A DNA stretch of 64,000 nucleotides, taken from assembly GCF_030704535.1 (NCBI RefSeq), contig NC_081818.1, positions 24,901,001 to 24,965,000 on the forward strand, in the 5' to 3' direction. This stretch comes from Vitis vinifera (taxonomy: Eukaryota > Streptophyta > Magnoliopsida > Vitales > Vitaceae). Shown here in pieces: positions 13,095-63,296 of the stretch. The position numbers were made by a program, and so were the translations under genes. How positions within the stretch are numbered: the stretch's first letter is position 1; each line of letters starts with the position of its first letter. A model generated the notes under the pieces. It searched no databases and was not told the origin of the DNA. It saw only the letters and a program-made list of their open reading frames with translations.

Positions 13095-13172
13095 GTGGGC
13101 GATGCAGAAGAAACGAAAGAGCGGGAGGAAACTGAAACTCCAAGAGGAATAAAGAAAGCAGAAACGAATGGA

Positions 13173-15359
13173 ATGAAGATTTCAAATTCAACTTCGGTAG
13201 TAATCACATTTTCTTGGAAAATCTACAGACGCCGCTACTCAAACAATCCAAACCTCACAACCCTTTTCAACAAGTACGTGGATAAAACCAATGTCTTCTC
13301 CTGGAACTCGGTCATTGCCGAGTTAGCTCGCAGCGGCGACTCGGTTGAAGCTCTTCGGGCCTTCTCCTCCATGCGCAAGCTCTCTCTCAAACCAAACCGC
13401 TCGACTTTTCCCTGCGCCATCAAATCGTGTTCGGCGTTGCTCGATCTCCACTCCGGCAGACAGGCCCACCAGCAAGCCTTGATTTTCGGGTTCGAACCTG
13501 ATCTTTTTGTGTCCTCCGCTCTCGTGGATATGTATTCCAAGTGTGGTGAATTGAGGGATGCAAGAACACTGTTTGATGAAATTTCTCATAGAAATATAGT
13601 GTCGTGGACGTCGATGATCACGGGCTACGTGCAAAACGATGATGCCCACAGGGCGTTGTTGCTTTTTAAGGAGTTTTTGGTTGAGGAGAGTGGGAGTGAA
13701 GGAGATGGGGAAGTTTGTGTCGATCCAATTGCTATGGTTTCAGTCCTATCAGCTTGTTCTCGTGTTTCGGAGAAGAGTATTACAGAAGGGGTTCACGGGT
13801 TTTTGATAAAAAGAGGGTTTGAGGGGGATTTGGGTGTTGAGAATACTTTGATGGATGCATATGCAAAATGCGGCGAGCTGGGTGTATCAAGGAGGGTGTT
13901 TGATGGGATGGCTGAGAGGGATGTGATCTCTTGGAATTCAATCATTGCAGTTTATGCACAAAATGGAATGTCAACTGAGTCTATGGAGATCTTTCATAGG
14001 ATGGTGAAGGATGGAGAAATCAACTACAATGCTGTCACTTTGTCAGCTGTGTTGTTGGCCTGTGCGCATTCAGGGTCTCAGCGACTAGGAAAGTGTATCC
14101 ATGATCAGGTACTCAAGTTTCAACTCCCTCAAGATTATTTCATCCTTTTGTAGTTATAGTTATCATTGCAAGCTCTAACCAACACTGCCTTCAAAATTAT
14201 TCTATAGTGGCCCTAAACAGTCTACACCTAGGATTAAATTTATAAAAGCATCTCTGGTTGTTTTCATACGTTAAATTTTTTTTTATTTTTTTTATTTACC
14301 AATCATTTTCAATAGGTTATAAAGATGGGTTTAGAATCGAATGTATTTGTGGGCACATCAATAATTGACATGTACTGCAAATGTGGGAAAGTAGAGATGG
14401 CAAGGAAAGCATTTGATCGCATGAGGGAGAAGAATGTCAAGTCATGGAGTGCAATGGTTGCAGGGTATGGAATGCATGGCCATGCTAAGGAAGCTTTGGA
14501 AGTTTTCTATGAGATGAACATGGCTGGGGTGAAACCAAATTACATTACATTTGTATCAGTTCTAGCAGCATGCAGTCATGCTGGTCTGTTGGAAGAAGGA
14601 TGGCATTGGTTTAAAGCCATGAGCCATGAATTTGATGTAGAACCAGGGGTTGAGCACTATGGTTGCATGGTCGATCTTCTTGGACGTGCTGGATATCTCA
14701 AAGAAGCTTTTGATTTGATCAAGGGTATGAAGTTGAGACCTGATTTTGTGGTCTGGGGTGCTCTTCTAGGTGCCTGTAGGATGCACAAAAATGTGGACCT
14801 TGGGGAGATTTCTGCAAGGAAATTGTTTGAGTTGGACCCAAAAAATTGTGGGTACTATGTATTGCTCTCAAACATATACGCTGATGCTGGAAGGTGGGAA
14901 GATGTGGAGAGGATGAGAATCTTAATGAAGAATAGTGGACTGGTTAAACCACCTGGATTCAGTTTGGTTGACATAAAAGGTAGAGTTCATGTATTTTTGG
15001 TTGGAGATAGAGAGCATCCTCAACATGAGAAGATATATGAATATCTGGAGAAACTATCTATGAAGCTGCAAGAAGTCGGCTATGTACCTGATATGACATC
15101 AGTTCTTCATGATGTTGGTCATGAAGAAAAGGAAATGGTTCTTCGAGTTCACAGTGAGAAGTTGGCTGTTGCCTTTGGAATCATGAACACAGTTCCTGGA
15201 ACAACAATCCATATCATTAAGAATCTTAGGGTTTGTGGTGATTGTCATACTGCAATTAAGTTTATTTCCAAGATTGTTGACCGGGAAATCGTGGTCAGAG
15301 ATTCTAAGCGGTTTCATCATTTTAGAGATGGATTGTGTTCATGTGGGGATTATTGGTAA
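13173..15359 (+). CDS. MEF14: DYW-class pentatricopeptide repeat protein, MEF14-like RNA editing factor
   Basis: Exons 13173-14108 and 14316-15359 join in phase 0 to give 659 residues. The first ATG in frame is 13173; the open frame extends further 5' but starts with GTG. The protein contains a series of PLS-type PPR repeats ([40 protein letters not shown]), then E motifs and a complete C-terminal DYW domain with HSEKLA, CGDCH and the terminal CGDYW. The DYW domain is the cytidine deaminase-like part that performs C-to-U editing. It looks like the orthologue of Arabidopsis At3g26782 (MEF14), reported to edit the mitochondrial matR transcript. The basic, Ser/Arg-rich N-terminus ([10 protein letters not shown]) suits organelle import. 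The single intron is unusual, as most PPR genes have none. Confidence 0.9.
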
Positions 15360-17946: not shown

Positions 17947-18753
17947 GGAGTTTAAGTCCAAAATAATCCATTTGTTGAAAAAAATGGTAAGAATAGTACC
18001 TATCTTAAAATATTTGTTAAACTAATCTTTTGTATTCACATAAGTATCCACATAGATTTCCTTGAAACCATAGTCACATACCGTGGTTTTATAAGGAAAA
18101 TTTCTTACAATTTTCCATTGTTAGTTTAAAATTATTTTATTTTTTTATACAAATTATCCTTAATAAATTTTTTCGATTGTTTTAAAATTATATATTTATC
18201 TTTATTTTTTCATATTTTTCTTGTAATTTTGAGAAAATAATTTGGCCTACATGCATTCTCATAAAAAATTATATATTTATGTTAAATAAAATATTTATTT
18301 AAGAAAATTTGGTACATTTTTAAAGAAATTTTGGTATTATACTAAAATTAAAAATAAAAAAACAAAGTTCTAAAATCTCATATTTTTTTAGTTATGGTTA
18401 CACGAGTCCTCCACTAATTGTGGTTTTAAAGAACTTTAAAACCACAGTCTATGATAAAAAAAAATTTATAAATAATATTAAAATCACAATACTATTAAAA
18501 TCGACGTATATTAAAAATAATTTTAAAACCATAGATATTAATTATGATTTTAAGAAAAATTATAAAACCACAGTTATAAATTGTGGTTTTAAGGATATTT
18601 CTAAAACTTTTAAAACTACAGTTATCAATAATGACTTTTTACACTTAAAAAAAAATTCTATGTGGATACAAAAGATTAATTTCACAAATATTTTAAGATG
18701 AGTAGTATTCTTACCATTTTTTCACCAAATGTATTATTTTGGACTCAAACTCC
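17947..18753. mobile_element. Non-autonomous TIR element with about 105-bp terminal inverted repeats
   Basis: The left end, starting GGAGTTTAAGTCCAAAATAA at 17947, is repeated inverted at the right end (18753 back to about 18653). Matching continues through ATGGTAAGAATA, ATCTTAAAATATTTGT and ATCCACATAGA. The left copy has about a dozen extra bases near 18030-18045. The interior contains palindromes built on TGTGGTTTTAA/TTAAAACCACA, including a 13-bp arm pair with a 2-bp gap at 18419-18446 and a 9-bp arm pair at 18564-18590. No transposase is encoded; the open frame across it is an artefact. I see no clean target-site duplication, so the superfamily is not assigned. Confidence 0.75.
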
Positions 18754-19195
18754 TCGTCCTGCTTCCTTACTTACGTGGCTGATCATCCTATTTTATTTTA
18801 TTTATTTTTAATATACTGTAGAAGGGAAGGCTACAAAAACAAATTTTGAAAGCCGCCCATATGCAGAGTAGAAAGCGAAGTCGTGGAAAAATCAAACATG
18901 TCCTGCTCAACTCTCATGCTTCCTTTGTCTCTCGAGTAACTTTATCCTCACGCCACTCCATTCTGCTTCCAGAATATCAGGAAGAGTCTGTTTTGTTTGT
19001 GATTGAGCAGGATAGTCAAGCCTCGTAATTTGACGGACGCCTAAATATCTTTGACGGCTCGCCTATAATACGATCCATACTTTCTTAGCCCTAGCAGGAG
19101 CATCGTTTGTCGTGGGAAATTGAAAACCTCTGCTTTTGCATTTTCTCTCATTTTCTACCTATTTCTTCCATTTTCTCCCAATCTCTCAGATCCTG

Positions 19196-19468
19196 ATGGC
19201 AATTTTTGAAAACGCTAGACATTGTATACCTAACTACCTTTACTCTGTATCCCCGAAGAAGAGCCTAATTCTGGAGGAAATGGCGTCTCCGCCCTCTGCA
19301 AATGGAGCAGAATCGAAGAGATTCGTTGTTCCAGCTCCGAGTGAACCCGCAAAGATAGAGATGTTCTCGCCAGCATTCTACGCTGCGTCTGCTTTCAGTG
19401 GAGGCCTAAGTACTGGCCTAACTCATACGGCCGTCACTCCATTTGATCTCGTCAAATGCAACATGCAG
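19196..19468 (+). CDS. Orphan first exon of a mitochondrial phosphate carrier
   Basis: An intact 273-nt open exon, ATG to a preserved CAG|GT donor, encoding 91 residues. It matches the first exon of the complete gene at 23360: SLILEEMASPPSANG versus [16 protein letters not shown], and [15 protein letters not shown] versus [15 protein letters not shown]. The carrier signature Px(D/E)xx(K/R) is kept (PFDLVK). The 5' leader also resembles that of the full copy (shared AGGAGCATCG and C/T-rich leader). No exon 2-6 equivalents occur before 23360. It ends in phase 0, the same as the full gene's exon 1, so it could splice to 26317 as an alternative first exon. Otherwise it is a truncated tandem duplicate. 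Confidence 0.7.
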
Positions 19469-21881
19469 GTCTGATTTCCTTACATCCCTTTCTGTTTTCT
19501 TGCTATGCTGTCTTCTATTCGCCACTGTCACCAGAGCTATCGAAAGTTCCGCTGTTTTTTATCGGTAAAACGAGTGCTTTTCCACTTTGTCTTCGTAGAG
19601 TCGGTTTCAGTCCAATCGAAACTTGTGTTGAAGTAAGTACACCGGTGACGTATTAGAAGATCAATGGTCTTCTTCCTTCTTTCCTTAGCCTCCTTGTCCT
19701 CGTTTTTAGACTTTTAGTCCATGTCAAGCTCTCTATTTTCATTTTTCATATCTTCCCCAACAAATTGGATACATATAGGGCACGATTAGAATAATTAGCA
19801 CTTAGGTTTTCCTTTGATTTGGTGTGTCATGTTGGGAATAGAGGCAATAATAGAATGCCTGGAGTTTTCTAACCATGATCCCGTCCAAACCTGTTAATCT
19901 TGCCAAACCTTTTAAAGGACAATTAGGAGTTATTTTCACCATGGTTGACATCAAAAAGAAAATACGGAGAAATAAAAATAAAAATCAACACAATAAGAAA
20001 ATTATCTCAAATAGATGTATTTTTATGATTTTCTTTTAATTTTTTTAATTTTTTAATTTTCAATATAATTTAAAATTGAAAAATCAATCAAATTAGGAAA
20101 ATTAGGAACTCATAAAATCTATATTTTTGTTTATATAATAAGTTTTTTCATATTTAATAAAATCTTCATCTTTTAACAAGTTCAAAAAATTAACAACAAA
20201 TTAAATTTGAAACTGTTGTTTTTATTAATTTTAATTCTTTCATAATAATAATTTTTTATTTTTTGGAATGAAAAAATATTTAGATATTGCATGTACACCT
20301 GTAATATTTTTACATCTTAATATTAACATGTAAAATATAAACTCCAATTTCTTAAAAAATAAAATTAAGTTTAATAAAGTAGAAAATTAAGTTGAATAAC
20401 TTATAATTTCTTAAAACAAAAAATAAAATTAAGTTAAGAAAGTAGAAAGTATTGAATAATGAGCTCCTATTGGAGTGATATTTGAATAAAGCTAAAATTG
20501 TAAAATAAGACTAATTTAATTAAGAAAAACACCAAGGGTTGGTGGTTGAATTTGGTGATTAAAATCTTTCGAAAAATAGTTTAAGTGAAATCACAAAATA
20601 TTTAATTATAAGTGCAATAAAGTAAAGAGTGGAAGAAGAAAAATACTAACTTTTTTTATAGTGATTCAACGATCTATTCATTCTTTTTAATCTCCTAACT
20701 AGGTGAGGATTTATTAACCAAGGCTTCAACCTAAGCCTTTAACTATCATACTTAGATTCACCGACTCCAATGAGCATTATAGGTTAGATTTAGATGCACA
20801 CGATTTTAATACAAATATAACTCAAAACACAGAAAAACTAAGATAGATTTTAAGGGTGAACTAAAGGATTTGTAAATTTAGATTCAATGTACTTAAATGA
20901 AAAGTTTTCAAGTAGAGAAACTAAGTGAAAACTATTCAATGCAAATGTTCATTTCTCAATATATGCAAGAAAGTTCTTCAATTTTTATTTTTATTTTAAA
21001 ACTAGTTTTTACACTTGAATCAACATAAAAAGGCCTCAATTGAGTTTTGATTAATCGATCCACTAGTTGTTGATGCAATTAATGCTATGCTAGTGATCGT
21101 TGATGTAATTAATATTCTGCCAGTTCCCTAATCGATTTTAGGCACACTTTATAGATTAATCAAATTTTGTTAAAAAAAAAGCTTTCGTTATAGTTTTAAT
21201 TTTTCAATAACAAGAGCATTTCATTTAAAAATCTTTTTAAGTTGTTTTTTAAAGAATTTAACCTAAGGTTTTAAGATAAAACACATATTTATCTATTTTA
21301 GTGAGAAAAGGTCACTTATAAGCTTAAGTAAGAATGATGAAAAAACATTTGGAAATGTATGAAAATATTTTATCTTAGATCTATCAATGAAACTCATCTT
21401 ATAGAGATTATTAAGTCTTCAATAATCTAACTCTTCATGACTTTTGAATATCTTACAAAGATGCTTAAACTTTCTTTAAAATTTATCAATAAAACCCAAA
21501 AACTTCACTTGATTTAAACATGCCATTGTACTTAACTTTATTTTGTAATTATTAATTAGGAAAATCCTTGAGCTAATTTTTAATGGAAGTAGAAAAGCAT
21601 TTTAAATAAAAGGGTTTTAACCAAAATTACTCTCAATTAGGTTTTAAATCTTGAAAATGACTCATAAAAATAAGATGAAGATAATAATCTCATGAAAAAA
21701 AAAATGTAGATACTATGAAGGAAGAAAATAAGTATAAATGAGCCAAACATGTTAAGTGAAGACTAAACCATTTTACATTTTAATTTTAATTGTGTTTTTA
21801 AATTCTAATTTTTTATTTAATTATTAATGATAGCTAACGGAGTTTATATTTGATTTTAATACCAACATATATGGAAATTAA

Positions 21882-22283
21882 GGGCATGTTTGGTAATTGT
21901 TTTTTAAATCAGTTTTGAAAGATAGTTTTTGAAAATAACTTTTAAAAACTATTATATGATGTCTTAAATAACAAAAGTCTATTTGAAAACTTAAAATGTT
22001 TTTAACATATTTTTAATATTTTTAATTGTGTTTAAAATTTTTTTTTATAATGTTTTATTTTTAATTATTTTAAATGTTAGTATAATTATTTTTTAAAACA
22101 GTCATTAAAAAAAAAAGTGAAAACAACGTAAAATAATTAAAATATATTTTTTGAAAACACTTACTTTCTAGTTTTAAGAATATACAGCAAAAAATAGTTT
22201 TTAATTGCTAAACAGGTTTTGCGGATTTTTTTTTGTTTTGAAGAACAAAAAACTGTTTTGAAAAACAGTTGTGAAACAAGTCC
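21882..22283. mobile_element. MITE-like element, copy 1 (GGGCATGTTTGGTAA type)
   Basis: The left end GGGCATGTTTGGTAATTGTT and the right end, read inverted (GGACTTGTTTCACAACTGTT), are similar imperfect terminal repeats. The interior is A/T-rich and non-coding. A related element lies at 47813-48136. Target-site duplications are not clean, so hAT versus PIF/Harbinger is unresolved. Confidence 0.5.
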
Positions 22284-22316
22284 TCAAATTCTTAGCTATG
22301 AACATTGGATTGGATT

Positions 22317-22328
22317 GCTCTGATACCA
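22317..22328 (-). other. Retrotransposon primer-binding-site-like sequence
   Basis: Minus strand reads TGGTATCAGAGC, the 12-base complement of the initiator tRNA-Met 3' end that many plant copia elements use as primer site. No LTR or gag-pol can be delimited nearby, so it is at most a relic. Confidence 0.4.
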
Positions 22329-23359
22329 GTTATATGATTGAACAATTGAGAATGATGAGAGTCCTTTTCACTTAAAAAGGGGAATTGCTACCTCTTATGA
22401 TGATCAGCAAATGGACATTTTGAAACTCAGCTACTGTCATACAAAATAGTCCAAGACAAAAGGACAATAAAAGTAACTTTGGGGATCAAATTTCATATGA
22501 ATTTTTTTATTAAAAGTAAGCCAATAAAGAAAAAATGAGTCTTTCTTCGGATGAGATTTCTATATCTTTTTTACCATGATTTAATTATTTAATAATTTAA
22601 GTGACTTTTTATAAGTCCATAAGATATAAAGTTGAATTTTTATATTTATATTATATTTTAAAAAATAATTTAATATTTATAAAAATAATTTAAGATTTAT
22701 AATAATTAAAAAAATATTTCTAAATTTATGATAATATGTGAAATAATACTTGAAATTTTATTTCTTTAGAAATAATTTCAAAATTGTATTTTAAATTTAT
22801 TTATTTTTAAAAAAACTTTAAATTTTAATATCTAAATTAAAATTATTTCTTTAAAATCTAATTTTTTATTTACTTTTGTGCTGTTTTTTAAAAGAATATT
22901 ATTTATTTACTTTTGTTTTTTTTATTTTTTATTTTTAAATTATGGAAGATTTAGAAATAATTTTTATCAAAATCCCGACAACAGGTAGATAAAGGGGTTG
23001 AAATAGAATATTCCACTACCACGCCGGCCTCTTGTGCAAGTGAAATTACCCTTGCACTAAAATTACCAATCGTACCCGCACGAGAGATTCTGTCTGTGTC
23101 AGACGACGCCGTTTAGAGCGTTGGAGAGGAAAGTCCAGGGACAGAGCATCGTAATTTCAGTTGAAGTTTAGGGTTTTTATTTGTACGTCGTATAAGTAAC
23201 GCGAACGAGGGCTAGCCGGTGGCCAATAAGTGGAACGACACTCCCCTCATTTCTTACAGGAGCATCGCTGTTGTTGAGTGCGAGATATTGGGAGAACATC
23301 TGCTTCCCTTTTTTTTTCCATTCATTTCTTCCGTTTTCTCTCAATCTCTTTCAGCTCTC

Positions 23360-26300
23360 ATGGCGACTTCTGAAAACTCTCGACATTCTCTGATCCCTTG
23401 CTTCCTATACTCCTCCTCCTCGAAGAAGAGCCTTATTCTTGAGAAAATGGCGGCTTCTCCATCACCTGCAAATGGAGGAGTACCCAAGAGCTTCTTCGTT
23501 CCTGCTCCAAGCGAGCCGGGAAAGATCGAGATGTACTCTCCGGCGTTCTATGCTGCTTGTACCGCCGGTGGAATCCTAAGTTGCGGCCTGACTCACATGG
23601 CCGTCACTCCTCTTGACCTCGTCAAATGTAATATGCAGGTCTGATTTGTTTAGATCCATCTCTTTTTGTTGCTATGATTGTTTTCCTTTTTTGTTAGGAT
23701 TTTCTTTGACAGTTCTATTTTCAGATCTGTGATAATCTTTGGCCGTTCTTCTTCTTCTTCTCCTTCTTCATTCCATATCTTTTTGTTTTGTTCCATTAGT
23801 TTTTCTAGAAGCGAAGTTAGGTTTTTCTTTGATTTTGTGGTCTCACGTTACAATCATCACTGGATGTGACTTGTAGTTATTTTTCCCGTTCTCGTCCTTG
23901 CTTTTCTATGTGGATTTAACCTTCTGTTCATATTAGACTCCATTTGGTTGCAGAGAATCATAGACAATAATATTAAGCTTGGAGTCTTACAACATTCCGA
24001 ATATGTTAAAGAATTCCGAATTTTCATTTCTTTTGCTAAGCCTTCTTTGGCAAACAAACAGTCCTTTGGTGTTATTTTTTTTAATAGCTCAGTTTGCATG
24101 TTATTTTCTGTTTCTGATCCCACATTTTGCTGGATTGTTATTGGTTCCAATTTTTTCTATAGTGTTCTACTGAATCAGAGCTTTATCTATTTAATGTCTT
24201 CTTGTTGCAAAATTTATGAGAGGTACAGAATTTTTTTTTTTTTTTTGATAAGTATGAGAGGTACAGAATTTGAAATGCAATGGTGCTCCCTGAGGGCTTG
24301 GAAATTTTAGTTAGTCCTATATTTGATTTGATAGCTTAAATGTTAGACTTCCCACTGGATCAGATATTTGATTAGCTTTTTTTCTTGCTTGAGATCGTTA
24401 TACATCCCTGTAATCCTATTTATACATAAACCTATGATACTGATTAAGTATACATGTTTAGTAAATAGGAGTTGGTTCTTTTAGGATTTAATTGTAGCTT
24501 GTGCCTTTTTAATATTGTATTGTGATTGATCATGTCAAATTCATTTTTATTGATCTGCTGATAACTCGTTGAATCCTTTTGATCCTTCACCCTCCTCATG
24601 TTTGAAGCTTATGTTTTATATGGTCTAGGTCTTAGAAAACAAAATACCTAGACAATTCAAGCCAATTGAGGGTTTGGTTCCTCTCCCATGCTTTTGACAA
24701 GTGATCTCCCATCATCAACTATAAAATTAATGTTATTCACATAACAACATACTGTGTCAATCCATCCTCCTCAATAGAACATAGGGTATTTGTTATCTGT
24801 AGATGAATGCCTCCTCTAATCCCCTCTATCACATTTTGTGTATGCTCCAACATTTCTTCTCTTTGCTTAGTTTTTTGCCTGAATTTTGATGATAATTTCC
24901 CTTGTATTTTTTTACAGTTTGATGCTAAAGCGTTTTTTGTTTGGACTGAGGCTCTTTGCTCAAATTCTTCCACTACTAAATCCTCCATTGAATTAATGAA
25001 AATTTTGATTTTGTTTGCATTTTTCTAGTTTTAGTCAAAAAATTATTTTAAACTTGGAATTTTAAATCTTCTCCTTAATGAAGAAGGGTTCGTCAGTCCT
25101 ATACTTGATACTTGTTGCTATATCCTCTAGTAAACAGTTGAGGTGATAAGCTAATGTCCTGATAATCATAGATTTTGTAGTTAATGACTTGATAAAAGCA
25201 TAAGAGATTACATATTCATCTATGGATGGGAGAGGAGTCAAACCTGCTAATTGATTGTAGTAGGCTTGGTTGGGTGAAGCCATTTGTTTTGTTGAGCACA
25301 TGACAAGAAAGTTTTCAGATTTAAAAACTTTAGTTACTTTTCTTTTCATACATTTTCTCACTGAGAAAGCAACCAAATGGACTTTAAATGTTTCTATGCT
25401 TTTTTTTAAACATTGATTCTATACTTGCAATTTGAAATGTTCATATTTGATGTTAGCTTTTTTATTTTATTTTATTTTTTAATCTGAGGACTGTTTAATA
25501 TTTTTTATCAGTGCATACCTATAAAAAAAATGTTTTGATCAGTGCACGGCTTTGAGGTTCTTTCCATAGCAGGGGTAATTCTTGTTAAGACCTTTTTTGG
25601 GTTCTTCCCATAGCAGGGGTCTCTCTTGTTAAGATCTTTTTGATCAGTTAAGATATTTGTTTTGTAGTGCACATGACAATGAAAATTTTCAGATTTAAAA
25701 ACTTTAGTTACTTTTATTTTCATATATTTTCTCACTAACAAAGCAACCGAATGGAGTTTAAAGTTTCCATGCCCCTTTTTTTTTTGAATTATTTCTGTCT
25801 GTACATGCAATTTGATAGGTTTATCTTTGATTTTAGTTTTTTTTTTTTTTTCATCTTTTTTTATCTAGGGATTGTTTAATGTTCTTGTTAAGTTCATGAC
25901 TTTTCCTTTTTGAGTTCTTTCCATGGCAGGGGTAGTTCTTGTTAAGATTTAAAGCGGCAGATTGCTAATCCATTGTATGAGTTATTCGTACCGAGGGTTT
26001 CAATCCCTCTCTTTACTATATATATATGTTTGTTTTTTTTATATGTTTATATTTGTTATTTGGTACATGTATGTGATTTTTATATTTTAAGACATTTATA
26101 GTTTGCATCTCAATGGATCGTTTATAGGAAACAAGAAAAGAAATGAAAAGTTGGAATACTATAACAGGTTGGCTTGGATCAGAGCGGTGGTTTTTCGATT
26201 TTAAGTTTTTTTATCCTTTTCCAACACCTTCTCAACAATCTAAAGAAGAGATTTTATTTGTGTGTTAAAAAATGTTAGGAAGGAGTGATCTAAAATTGAG

Positions 26301-28037
26301 ATTATTTTTTGTTTAGATTGACCCTGCAAAGTACAAGAGCATTTCGTCTGGATTTGGAGTTTTGCTGAAGGAGCAGGGAGTTAGGGGATTTTTCAGGGGT
26401 TGGGTGCCTACCCTGCTTGGTTATAGTGCACAGGGTGCTTGCAAGTTTGGATTCTATGAATTCTTCAAGAAGTATTACTCTGACATTGCTGGGCCAGAGT
26501 ATGCTGCCAAGTACAAGACCTTGATCTACCTTGCTGGTTCTGCATCTGCTGAGGTAATTGCAGATGTTGCTCTTTGCCCCATGGAGGCAGTGAAGGTCCG
26601 GGTTCAAACTCAGCCTGGTTTTGCTAGAGGTCTGTCAGATGGATTTCCCAAGTTTGTTAAATCCGAAGGTGCCTTGGGGTATGCCTATCAAACTTTGACT
26701 TCTTTCCTCCCCAATTCGCCACTTTATAGTACTAAGCTATAACTACTGATTATGTGAAAACTTTGCAGATTGTACAAGGGCATTGTTCCTCTCTGGGGAC
26801 GTCAGATTCCATGTAAGTTGAGGCATCTTGTTAAGTTATTTATCTTTTATTTTTTTGGTCTATTGCATAAGAATATTCATTAACCAATGTAGTGTGCTTG
26901 CTCATGATGACTGAAACTTCTATGAGTTGTACTCCATCTGATAAATTGATGTTGGGGTAACTTTAAATGAATTGGTGTATTCTAGCTGTTTTGTTTACTG
27001 ATCTAATGCTGTGACCAATTTTTAGTATCTTGGTGTCTCCATCTTCTGAAGTTGATCTAGTATATCTTTTGGAGTGTACTAATTTTTAGATGAGCATTAA
27101 TGCTTTTGCAAACCATAATCTTGCAAATGGATGCATAAATGTGAATTTTTGTTGAATTTAGTTTGCTTTGTTTTTTATCTGTTACATGCTGCAACTCCGA
27201 GCCTCATTGGAAGAACAATTTCTGTGAAGCAACTAATCTTGATTTTCTGGATCAAAAGGATTGCGGCATGTTAATCATTTCCAAAATGTTAACCTTATTT
27301 TAAAGTATTTTTATGCTTTCTTAATCCAATTTCTGCTGTTTGAGCTTTGATATGGTTTCTCCTTGTCATGCTGATATAATTGGCTTTTTTGGGCTTTGCG
27401 TAAATGTTAATGTTCATTAGAAATCTTATAAAATCATAATGGTTTTTTGTGCAGATACAATGATGAAATTTGCTTCTTTTGAGACTATTGTTGAGATGCT
27501 TTACAAGTATGCCATTCCTACTCCGAAGGACCAGTGCAGTAAAACTCTGCAGCTTGGTGTGAGCTTTGCTGGTGGATATGTGGCTGGTGTTTTCTGTGCT
27601 ATTGTTTCTCATCCAGCTGACAATCTTGTCTCCTTCCTCAACAATGCTAAGGGCGCAACAGTTGGTGATGTGAGTGCTCTACTTTAAGATGTTTCCTTGG
27701 CCTTCTGTATTCCTTCATGCCCACATGTTTATGTTGTTTTGAACTTTTGTTCTCTAGGCTGTGAAGAACCTTGGATTGTGGGGTCTCTTCACCCGGGGGC
27801 TTCCCCTGCGTATTGTCATGATTGGAACTCTCACCGGAGCACAGTGGGGGCTATATGATGCTTTCAAAGTTTTCGTAGGACTGTAAGTTCTTCCTATGCA
27901 AATGCTGATCTTCATTTGGTGTTTTAGTTTTTTTTCTTTAGTTGCTAATTCGGTATGATCTTATCTTCAGGCCAACCACTGGTGGTATTGCTCCTGCTCC
28001 TCCTGCTCCAACGACTTCTGAGCTTGCAAAGGCCTAG
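23360..28037 (+). CDS. Mitochondrial phosphate carrier (PHT3/MPT)
   Basis: Six exons: 23360-23638, 26317-26678, 26769-26812, 27455-27669, 27758-27882, 27971-28037. All introns are GT-AG and the phases agree, giving 363 residues. After an N-terminal presequence ([16 protein letters not shown]) come three mitochondrial-carrier repeats. Signature motifs are PLDLVK (exon 1), PMEAVK (exon 2) and the third-repeat form PADNLV (exon 4). [20 protein letters not shown] and [20 protein letters not shown] are typical of the phosphate carrier. It imports phosphate with protons across the inner mitochondrial membrane for ATP synthesis. Closest in sequence to Arabidopsis MPT3/PHT3;1. Intron 1 (2.7 kb) holds internal duplications. 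ATG 23360 is preferred because the peptide after it aligns with the Arabidopsis N-terminus. Confidence 0.95.
24216..24271 (-). mobile_element. Minimal L1 LINE tail with perfect target-site duplication
   Basis: ATGAGAGGTACAGAATTT occurs at 24216-24233 and again at 24254-24271. Between them lie 20 bases: a T run and GATAAGT, which on the minus strand reads ACTTATC followed by A's. This is the tail signature seen at L1 3' ends elsewhere in the window (ACCTATC plus A's). It is best explained as an extremely 5'-truncated L1 insertion in intron 1 of the carrier gene. Confidence 0.65.
25283..25948. repeat. Internal duplications in carrier intron 1
   Basis: A block of about 185 bp starting TTTGTTTTG (25283) recurs at 25646, sharing TTTTCAGATTTAAAAACTTT and AAAGCAACC. 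Three copies of a shorter motif (TTCTTTCCATAGCAGGGGT then TTCTTGTTAAGA, with variation) lie at about 25557, 25601 and 25913. No coding content. Confidence 0.6.
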
Positions 28038-29726
28038 AATGTTGAATTATCGGTATACAGAGTTTAGATGAATGATAAAACTGGGAAAACGTCTTAATAG
28101 GGATCAATAAGGGTAGGATTCCTGAAGCTGCGAGTGGGAAATATTCTTTTGCATTTGAAACTTGCGTCAATTTTCCTTGTTCACTTTTTTTTGGGGTTGG
28201 GGGTTGTTTGATGGTGGGGGTTAAGATTGGTATCGGTCTTGTCCATCCAATTCTTGAAAACTTTAGTGTGTTAGACGAAAAATCTCACTTTGATATTAGG
28301 ATTATGGATGTCATCCATCACAAATGGACAGCAAGGAATAATGAGCATCTGCTTACATCGAACAGTAGGCATGTGCAGAGATGGCAATGCAAAGGCGTGG
28401 AAAATTATGTCTCTTTTCATGGTTCATAATCACTATCATGTCAGATGCCTTCGCAAACCATTTTTTTTTTTCTGCTGGGTATGTTAATGCATTTTTTACC
28501 TATTTGAAAAGGGCTTGGCATGAATTTTATATGTTGTAATCTGTTTTACCTGAGTCCGGTTGTGCCCTAGCCCAGTAACGTATGTCACCAAATAATTTAC
28601 TCTACCGTTCATTTCAAATTTCATACTTTATAGCATTTATAGATTTTAAATAAAAAGATTTTAGGTAAATATGTTTACTCTAAAAATAAATTTTCTTCTC
28701 CAAAAAGTAAGTTTTACACGAAATAAATCTGTAAAAATGTAGATGAAAATTAAAACCAAAGATTAAAATATATGAATGAAATTAAGTACAAAATATTAAA
28801 AGGAGATTATTTTTATTAACAAATTATAATTTTTTTATAAAGTAGGCATAAGCTTTTGTAAAATAAGGTCATATTTGATCCTCAATCAAATATCCATTTA
28901 AATCAATCAGATCAAAGTGCTGCCATTAAGGCAAAAGCCTCCGAAGATGCACTTCACGCTTCATACTCCCACCAACGTGGTAGGTGGACTTCGTCTTCTC
29001 ACCTCTCCTCTCACCTTAATGCAGTCTATGTAGGATAAAGGGTCTTCCTTGCAGTTACCACTCACCACTCTGATGAGTGGAGGCAGAGGCAGAACCAAGA
29101 ATATTTGGCGGGAATTCCAAACACTGGACCATGAGAGGCACCTAACTTTTGTGAAATCTTTATCTATGTTGTATAATGGAGTAAAAAGAGTCACATACCA
29201 CATACATCAGATATTTATCTCCAATTGAACAAAATCTTGTTCCTTCAGGAAGGATAACCATGACTATATGAATCAATAATTAATTATCATTGTTGGTCAA
29301 CCCAATTTAATCCTGGCCCAATCCAATCTATTAAAGCAAGTACCCTGGGGGCATCCTGAACAAAGGCATGCACTGGCCTGATCTCAGACCAGACCTCCCA
29401 AGCTTGAAGCTCTAGATGGAAAAGAGGCACGAACCACCAACAGTCAGAGACTTACATCTCCAGGTTTTCAAACTCATGAAACAACTCATAGAATCTTTAA
29501 CCGTAAATTTATCTTCTCTCGGCTCGTAAATTACATAAACCCTAAATAAACATAACCACCTCCAGCCCCCAAGCTTCTGCCCTGCAAATACAAATAAACC
29601 ACCAAAGAATGGGGTAGTTGATGGTAATATACAGCATTTTTAGTGCATGCCCATTGCAATAGTAATGGTGAGAGAATCCTACCCCATAGGATTTGAAATG
29701 AACAGGGAGCTGGAACCCAGTCTTGA
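28038..29726. other. Tail-to-tail spacer between the carrier and V-ATPase C genes
   Basis: Holds the 3' UTR regions of the two convergent genes. No additional gene, RNA or clear repeat found; the middle (28600-28900) is AT-rich. Confidence 0.5.
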
Positions 29727-47429: not shown

Positions 47430-49967
47430 TTGGATTTTTGTGCTGTGCTTGATGTTAGAGTCGACGGTTTTGCAGTAGAGAAGGTGGAATTAGAGAAGAC
47501 TTGAGGCGGCTGCCTGGTGGATACATGGAAGAGGTTAGTTATCCAAACGCGTCATTGTCGAAGTTTGTCATTTGGCTGAAGACTTGGGAGTAACGGTGAG
47601 ACCCGGAATCCAATTCGAATCTTCTGTTTTCCACTAAATTGCCGGATTCGCTGGAGGGAAACTTCCCACCGGCTGCTGGGCCCAACAAACTTCACGTTGG
47701 GCCTCTTGGGAGGCCTTTTTCCGTTGACGCATGGACGACACAAAATTATACCACCTCTTCCTTTTTTCTCTCTCTCACGAGGAATGGAATAAAATAAAAA
47801 TAATAATAAAAAGGGTGTGTTTGATAATTGTTTTGGATAATAATTTTCTATTCTTAAAAATTAAAAAAAAATATAAACATGTTTAATAATAAAAAATAAA
47901 CCGTCTTCAAATAATATTTTTTAGTTATTTTTTTTGTTTTCCTATAATTATTTTAAAAAATAATTATATAAACATGTAAAATAATTAAAAATAAAATCAT
48001 AGGTATAAAAATTATTTTTAAAACACATTTTAAAATATTAAAAATAGATTAAAGACATTTTAAGCTTCCAAACAAACTTTTATTCAACAAAACATCAAAA
48101 AATAATTTTCAAAAACCGTTTTTCATAAACAAGCCCTTAACTATTAAATTCATATCCATCACATTTGAAAGTAATGACCAAAATAAATGTTTGAAACGTG
48201 GCTAAGTTGCTAAATATCACCAACTTACTTTCTAATGTGATCAAATTATAATAACTAAATCAAGTTACATTTCAAATGTGATAAATAACTTTTTGAGCAT
48301 GAATTTCTTATTTTTCATGTGACCATAAGGAAATTGATAAACTTTTCAAATTATTTTTCCAAAATATAGGCTAAAGGGCCTTGATATTACATAACACTAA
48401 AATTAGTTCTTTCAAATTGTAGGATAAAGAGCTTTAATTTAGCATGAAATTAAAAAATTATATTGAAGCTATGTTGCATGGAAGGAGTATTAAAAATCAT
48501 AGTCAATATAGTCTAAGGTGATGTTTGTTTTTTTTACTTAATTTTAAATAGAACTTTAATGCTTAATAGTGTTAAGTATTAGACAATTTGTTTTTGTAAT
48601 GTTTTATTTTTATTAAGCATTAAAAGGTAAAGAAAAATCAGTATGTCATTTTTTCTATTTATAAAAAAGTAAAATATTTTGACTTTTTCTATTCAGTAAA
48701 AAATTCATAATAAGTTATGAAAAAATAGAAAAATAAATGACATAAAGTCTAAAAATAAATTACTTTCAGCAAAAAGCTAAAAAAAATAAATACATTTTAA
48801 TAGTGAAATCAATTCTCGCAATGAAATGAAAAAAAAAAAAATTGTATACATGTCCTTGAGTTATTATTATGAATTTTTAGGTCAAATAAAATGGTTTGTA
48901 TTCTACACTACACATAGGAAGTGATTAGGGTTATAACTAATATGGTCTTCTCCCATTGTGTCAATCTCAAATTTATGATATTGAAGGGTCTAGAGCTTAT
49001 TCCTATTACAAAATTGAGAATATTTGAACATATTTTCTTTTAAATATTATTTAAAAAAATAGTTGTTTAAGATGAAAATTCAAAATTATAATACTTTTTA
49101 GTTTTTACCACTTGTTTTTATTTTTGTATAGAATTTTTATTCTTAAAAAAATAATTTATTTTTAATATTAAAATTTTTTATATTGAATTCCCCTGAAAAA
49201 ACGAGTTCATTTTTGCACTAAGTACATATTTTCAAAAGCTAAATTACAGTGGATGTTTGGTAGACTAACTTAATAATTTAAAGTGACTTAATAATTTAAT
49301 TTAAATTATTAAATAATTTAAATATGTTTGGCAAAATAACTTAATAGTGTGATTTAAAAGTAAAAAACAAATTTAAGTAATAAATAAAAACAATTAATTT
49401 ATTTTTAAATCCACATATTACCTTTACCTTTATTTGTAATAATTATTTTCGCCATCTTTTTTACTATTTTATAACTTCTATTATTATTTGATTTTCTTTG
49501 TTTTAATTATAATTTATGAATAATATATTAATTTGTTGATTTAAAATAAATTTTATTAAATAATTTTAATATTTTTTTAAAATTAAATAATAAGTTTTAA
49601 GGTAATAATTTAAATGTAATTTAACTTAAAATTAATTTAAGTTATTAAGTTTTATTAATTATAATCTAAAAGTACGTAGATCGTGGAATTATTTTTAATG
49701 GTATAGTTTTTTAAAATTTAAATTGGGGCAAAAAAAGCCCCTTTGGGCCTTGACATCTCTTGACAAAGAAGAAGGGTCAAGAAAGAAATACCGCAAAATA
49801 GGAGGGTATCGCGACAAAAAGCAATAAGCAAATGGAGAGAGGCTGACACGAAGACAAAGCCCTAACTCTCAACTGGTTCGGTAGTGCCTCTTCTGTCTTT
49901 CGTACCAAGTGGTATCGGAGGACGCTCAACAACTTTCATCTTGAAGCGAAGCTTTGGAGAACAATCG
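47430..49967. other. Divergent spacer between LCB2 and the CHZ gene
   Basis: No gene. Two TGGGCC-type site II words occur near 47676 and 47697 in the LCB2 upstream region. A MITE-like element is at 47813-48136. The stretch 48150-49680 is very AT-rich. TTTGGGCC occurs again near 49743, upstream of the CHZ gene. Confidence 0.5.
47813..48136. mobile_element. MITE-like element, copy 2 (GGGTGTGTTTGATAA type)
   Basis: Ends are similar when one is inverted (GGGTGTGTTTGATAATTGTT versus GGGCTTGTTTATGAAAAACG). The interior is A/T-rich without an ORF, and it resembles the element at 21882-22283. No clean target duplication seen. Confidence 0.5.
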
Positions 49968-62575: not shown

Positions 62576-63027
62576 ATGAATTATTTTCCTGATGAGGTTT
62601 TGGAGCACGTGTTCGACTTCCTGACGTCCCACCGAGACCGCAATACGGTGTCTCTGGTGTGCAAGTCATGGTTTAAGGTGGAGAAATGGAGCAGGCGTAG
62701 GGTCTTCGTAGGGAATTGTTATGCGATTAGTCCTGAAAGATTAATCGCTAGGTTTCCTAGGGTTAGAGCTCTTACTTTGAAAGGAAAGCCTCACTTTGCT
62801 GATTTTAATTTGGTTCCTCCTGATTGGGGAGGTTTTGTTTATCCCTGGATTGAAGCCATGGCCAAGAGTAATATTGGGTTAGAGGAGCTCAGGTTGAAGA
62901 GAATGGTGGTTTCGAATGAAGGCCTGGAGCTGCTTGCTCGATCGTTCGTGAATTTCAAGTCTCTGGTTTTAGTCAGCTGTGAAGGGTTTACCACCGATGG
63001 ACTTGCAGCCGTTGCTGCAAATTGCAG
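62576..63027 (+). CDS. AFB2: Auxin receptor F-box protein, AFB2/AFB3-like (first exon only)
   Basis: The first coding exon, 452 nt (150 codons plus 2 bases), ends at a GT donor at 63028; the remaining exons are beyond the window. The protein starts [20 protein letters not shown] (F-box, about residues 1-42, which binds ASK1 of the SCF ligase). It continues into the first leucine-rich repeats: [31 protein letters not shown] and [20 protein letters not shown]. The start MNYFPDEV and the '[12 protein letters not shown]' segment favour AFB2/AFB3 over TIR1. SCF-TIR1/AFB complexes bind auxin together with Aux/IAA proteins and trigger their degradation. Splitting after AANCR matches the TIR1/AFB intron position as I recall it. 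Choice between AFB2 and AFB3 orthology is not meaningful from one exon. Confidence 0.93.
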
Positions 63028-63296
63028 GTAGGAGCTGGCTGTTCATTTTTTAGTTTACTTTAGCTAGTATTTTTGCATATTTTTATAAGTTGTTGCCTCT
63101 TCTGTCCCTTTCATTTATTTGTTTTTATGGATTTAAGTAGTTGATGAACAACTCTCCGAGAGTCTCATGTGTCTTTCGCTTAGATTTCTGTATATGCGCC
63201 TTTTCAACCAAGTTATACTGCTATAATGATACTGATAGCTGAATAAAATTTATTTCGATATCAAAGTTTGTTTGGTTACTAGTAATTGTCCTCGGA

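Follow-up and report, generated by a model that had tools for sequence, protein, structure and literature searches.

The closest described system is the mammalian mitochondrial phosphate carrier SLC25A3 (PiC), a transporter of the same type as the one encoded at the grape locus described here, and likewise with two alternative exons (3A and 3B; PMC7226361; PMC5740500; PMC7288124). In mammals the alternative exons are internal, and experiments have established their mutually exclusive use, whereas those of grape would both be first exons with separate promoters and would swap the presequence as well. Tissue use distinguishes the 3A and 3B forms, as do affinity and transport rate (PMC2636774). 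Gly72 of exon 3A, a disease residue, is found at position 14 within the translocation cavity, in the first-helix region, which is therefore taken as the segment swapped in SLC25A3 (PMC7226361). In the yeast carrier, uniport/antiport conversion depends on Cys28, which is also the target of N-ethylmaleimide (PMC3291998). Alternative-promoter genes generally join a separate promoter and first exon to common exons, as is proposed here; what sets grape apart is that the alternative exon is a diverged copy of its resident counterpart and encodes a portion of the folded transporter. The human exon boundary presumably coincides with the plant one, after ...VKC.MQ.

The window, a 64,000-nucleotide stretch of the grape genome (contig 14, 24901001-24965000), contains at 23360-28037 a complete six-exon gene for a mitochondrial phosphate carrier of 363 aa, the resident gene, with GT/AG at all five introns (Table 1). 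A separate copy of its first exon, the orphan exon, lies 4.2 kb upstream on the same strand. Translation and alignment bear out the original prediction for this exon, which had ascribed to it an ATG, an uninterrupted frame, the P-F-D-L-V-K carrier signature, a homologous leader and a GT donor. The donor, CAG/GTCTGATT, is identical to that of resident exon 1; GTCTGA, carried by both, is weak by consensus. Both exons also end in phase 0, as had been claimed, and joining 19468 to 26317 in frame does give the expected 361-residue carrier. All the structural properties of an alternative first exon (ATG, open frame, donor, phase match with exon 2) are thus present in the orphan, and the orphan/resident pair is frame-compatible with the common exon 2, as an SLC25A3-like exon pair would need to be. 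A direct repeat, 25274-25590 against 25647-25947 (75% identical), is located inside resident intron 1.

Table 1. Orphan exon, resident gene and associated sites (positions in the window)
Feature	Positions	Strand	Basis or remark
Upstream and leader DNA of the orphan, candidate promoter/5' UTR	18767..19195	+	Single copy (18754-19190); leader homologous, upstream part weakly
Orphan exon (91 codons) encoding presequence and first carrier helix	19196..19468	+	Mito_carr 24.6 bits; ATG, open frame and donor; evolved under constraint
Copy of 5' part of intron 1, with 99-bp organelle-like insert (19524-19622)	19469..19937	+	Alignment
Acceptor-like site TTTCAG/CTCTC directly 5' of the resident ATG	23355..23359	+	Orphan splicing here would give a frameshift and a stop at codon 104
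Exon 1 of the resident gene	23360..23638	+	Gene model
Exon 2, phase-0 acceptor exon, possible orphan splice partner	26317..26678	+	Gene model
Exons 3-6 (26769-26812, 27455-27669, 27758-27882, 27971-28037)	26769..28037	+	Gene model

The orphan and resident copies are 76.9% identical over 355 columns (E 2.6e-69). Both indels in the exon alignment are of 3 bp and in frame; the leader alignment has many gaps, mostly not of 3 bp. Homology of the leader extends over about 115 bp (score 90.9, against 49.7 as the maximum of 200 shuffles), and 19081-19192 is clearly homologous to 23250-23357. Further upstream the similarity is weak and reaches about 18767: none of 200 shuffles attains the score of 18754-19080, and in a GC-matched test against the resident upstream DNA 18860-19080 is barely above chance (48.7 vs a shuffle maximum of 47.6). 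This weak collinear similarity suggests that promoter DNA was duplicated together with the orphan exon; by genome search, 18754-19190 is single copy. Similarity within intron 1 is also weak and continues to about 19937 (125 vs a maximum of 114 in 100 shuffles). For 19508-19937 the score is attained by 4 of 200 shuffles, and by none of 200 once the organelle-like insert is left out (88.4 vs 86.7).

This insert, located in the orphan intron stub, matches two places at 99.0% identity: the 770-kb contig C20, which is probably mitochondrial DNA, and a nuclear copy on C10. A probable mobile element at 17947-18753, with inverted ends of about 96 bp that are 90% alike, ends just upstream of the promoter region of the orphan, and no clear target duplication was seen around it. 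The spacer holds at 21868-22302 a high-copy MITE-like repeat, whose long matches are 75-79% identical among the 40 scored of 3204 genome-wide candidates; a partial copy lies at 47883-48130 of the window.

The genome (21 contigs, 495.6 Mb) yields six places at E up to 1 when searched with the orphan protein. Copies of exon 1 of this type number three: the orphan, the resident and one on contig 17 (755223-755519, E 7e-22). Contigs 3 and 7 give weak matches to the helix, and contig 18 one match at chance level. Contig 17 holds a second carrier gene, with an exon 2 protein that is 91% identical, and no second exon 1 was found at that locus. The resident and contig-17 genes resemble ordinary plant phosphate-carrier members, which we take to be mitochondrial phosphate transporter genes of the MPT3 type. 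If expressed, the grape pair would function in the manner of the SLC25A3 exons; common descent with that arrangement is not suggested, since no such exon was found at contig 17. If contig numbers equal chromosome numbers, contigs 14 and 17 are presumably partners in the ancient grape triplication; the tandem duplication would in that case be younger than the triplication, because the leader is common to orphan and resident and absent from contig 17. A prokaryote collection contains one distant match, in a bacterial MAG, and no relatives were found in a viral collection. The full resident protein matches eight PDB sequences, none of them named phosphate carrier, and exon 1 alone matches none. 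No published description of the orphan exon was recognised in the literature searched, a partial search and thus no proof of novelty.

Fragments of phosphate carriers also occur elsewhere in the genome: at loci L021, L022 and L024 near base 1501 (on C16, C16 and C10), twice on C15 and twice on C5. All seven cover approximately residues 182-270, next to which five also carry 271-297, and they are continuous across the intron positions of the resident gene. Three of these loci, compared with one another, share more than 2 kb of DNA that is 90-99% alike, as if a spliced carrier piece had been captured there by a mobile element.

Selection on the orphan exon was assessed pairwise and by branch. 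The NG86 comparison with the resident exon gives dS 0.77 (bootstrap 0.47-1.30), dN 0.17 and dN/dS 0.22 (bootstrap 0.10-0.41), or 0.24 with an alternative placement of one leader gap. This is the comparison with 23360-23638 asked for beforehand, and its outcome is not near 1. The premise that a dead copy would show a ratio near 1 does not hold, however: with a constrained partner about 0.5 is expected (0.45-0.52 simulated). The two exons differ at 26 of 91 residues, of which parsimony assigns 12 to the orphan and 2 to the resident, leaving 12 without a branch. Codon likelihood was run on the three exon-1 sequences for three codon sets; contig 17 served as outgroup, and orphan and resident were given branches of equal length. 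The orphan dN/dS is then 0.34-0.37, against 0.08-0.15 elsewhere. A ratio of 1 along the whole orphan branch is rejected (p 0.00085, 0.00079 and 0.0098 for the three codon sets), and so is equality with the rest (p 0.034, 0.0028 and 0.0035). Without equal branches the orphan ratio is 0.24, a value of 1 is rejected (p 0.018) and equality with the rest is not rejected (p 0.64). The equal-branch version is relied on here because the free-ratio model without this constraint gives the resident an absurd value of 7.4 on a near-zero branch.

Given equal branch lengths, the orphan evolves faster than its relatives, a pattern that fits relaxation or recent death too. The exon was under constraint, though more weakly than its partner or for a time that stopped short of the present. 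These results support an origin as an old tandem copy that is nevertheless constrained, selection apparently having held it carrier-like for much of its history. Of the marks of a pseudogene, neither a stop nor a frameshift is present, and the data reject neutrality over the entire branch; a late death would be compatible with these findings.

The quality of the encoded helix was compared with the Mito_carr family, for which the orphan score exceeds the curated cut-off (22.3 bits), the resident scoring 21.1 and contig 17 19.7. The spliced carrier with the orphan exon reaches 160.8 bits, against 157.5 for the resident. None of 30 exons with 26 random amino-acid differences attains 21.1 (the best scores 16.8), and 8 of the 30 match the family at all. 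With six helix changes, the number that parsimony places on the orphan branch out of nine in total, 24 of 30 match and one reaches 24.6, with 26.0; the next best has 19.0. These controls were built from the resident exon and not from a reconstructed ancestor. Since random changes seldom keep such a score, the changes kept in the orphan are of the kind tolerated by carriers. The helix retains T-H and P-x-D-x-x-K-C. It lacks the conserved first-helix cysteine, which is not needed for family membership: this residue of S-C-G-L-T-H is Cys in the resident and contig 17, Ala in the paralogues of contigs 3 and 7, and Thr in the orphan. The position presumably corresponds to yeast Cys28.

The explanation we adopt, with slightly more belief than disbelief, is that the orphan arose by tandem duplication and serves the phosphate-carrier gene as an alternative first exon. 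Transcription would begin at about 19.1 kb, driven by a promoter in the single-copy DNA upstream that may have been duplicated together with the exon. With 19468 then spliced to 26317, resident exon 1 would be removed within a 6.8-kb intron. The product would be a carrier with a different mitochondrial presequence and a different first transmembrane helix, in which Cys is replaced by Thr. The orphan may in this way provide a second form of the transporter, and the two forms may differ in transport. Lacking the cysteine, the upstream form is predicted to be thiol-insensitive. A broader claim, which we judge less likely than not, is that the plant independently evolved a first-helix swap like that of SLC25A3, by duplicated exons with separate promoters and presequences; the upstream form, without the cysteine, may on this reading also be differently regulated under oxidative stress.

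The history could also have ended in silence. A whole tandem paralogue may have lost exons 2-6 through a single deletion running from its intron 1 to the upstream flank of the resident gene, leaving the first exon unused and not yet decayed; we give this recently silenced relic a substantial probability, although we incline against it. Such a single deletion would yield exactly the present layout, and the faster orphan branch would correspond to roughly a quarter of the branch being neutral. Timing was explored in simulations with assumed settings (kappa 2, 0.08 indels per substitution, 80% of them frame-shifting). Full integrity is kept in 36-40% of runs when the copy was neutral for the last 10% of the branch, in about 15% for the last 20% and in 5-6% for the last 30% (34-38% in this last case if stops and the ATG alone are counted). 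After death within the last 20-30% of the history the pairwise dN/dS would still be about 0.12-0.29, and fewer than half of the runs would keep the exon intact. Since late-dead copies can show both, a low ratio and an unbroken frame are no proof of present use. Late death is accordingly possible in these models, but would need some luck.

Against such a relic stand the intact donor and frame, and helix changes that are compatible with a carrier, a score of this kind being kept in one of 30 exons with six random changes. Traces of the lost exons are also missing: blastn, tblastn and local alignment gave no match to exons 2-6 in the stretch from 19.9 to 23.2 kb, which leaves resident exon 2 as the nearest compatible partner found. 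When the spacer was compared with 27400-28500, one local score (150.7) was slightly above the maximum of 20 shuffles (147.2), and blastn gave no exon match. The flanks, searched for a whole-gene tandem duplication, yielded two matches, one from a repeat and one of 42 bp in inverted orientation, a comparison that cannot decide the matter at the divergence of orphan and resident.

A further, improbable alternative is a decoy or regulatory first exon. The acceptor-like site at 23354/23355 in the resident leader could compete for the orphan splice; joining there would open a frameshifted frame of 103 residues, and the resident gene would gain a variant with an untranslated leader or one destined for decay. 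The site is preceded by 17 pyrimidines in 20 positions, exceeding all five true acceptors of the resident gene (10-15 of 20), but pyrimidine-rich leaders are common in plants and the same motif is also present before the orphan ATG. Constraint at the protein level and the high helix score would moreover be left without explanation.

Fragmentary duplications are common and repeats are present in the spacer, yet it is scarcely credible that the exon was duplicated by chance, dead on arrival and never used, since codon likelihood rejects this and lifelong-neutral copies with indels match the observed state (intact, with dN/dS as low) in 0 of 1500 runs under each of four settings, a first version without indels and with a somewhat too high dS giving matches in 2, 1, 0 and 0 of 600 runs. 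The ATG without a stop is kept in 6-7% of lifelong-neutral runs, and a ratio as low occurs in at most 0.7%. The argument that a dead duplicate of this divergence should have acquired stops or lost its donor thus stands in so far as death from birth is contradicted; it fails as an argument for present use, which the intact frame does not prove.

If the alternative first exon is used, plant phosphate-carrier isoforms would arise by duplication of an exon for the same protein segment as in mammals. Selection would have preserved a spare first exon of the gene ever since an old duplication, and the isoforms would give access to the way plant tissues adjust the phosphate supply for ATP synthesis. 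If the exon is silent, the locus would illustrate cleanly that a recently orphaned exon can look functional by its open frame and low pairwise dN/dS.

Other features lie farther from the carrier gene. At 13095-15359 there is what we take to be a PPR-like gene, with a break in its frame between about 14150 and 14320 that an intron may account for. The start of an F-box gene is located at 62576-63031 and presumably resembles the auxin receptors TIR1/AFB.
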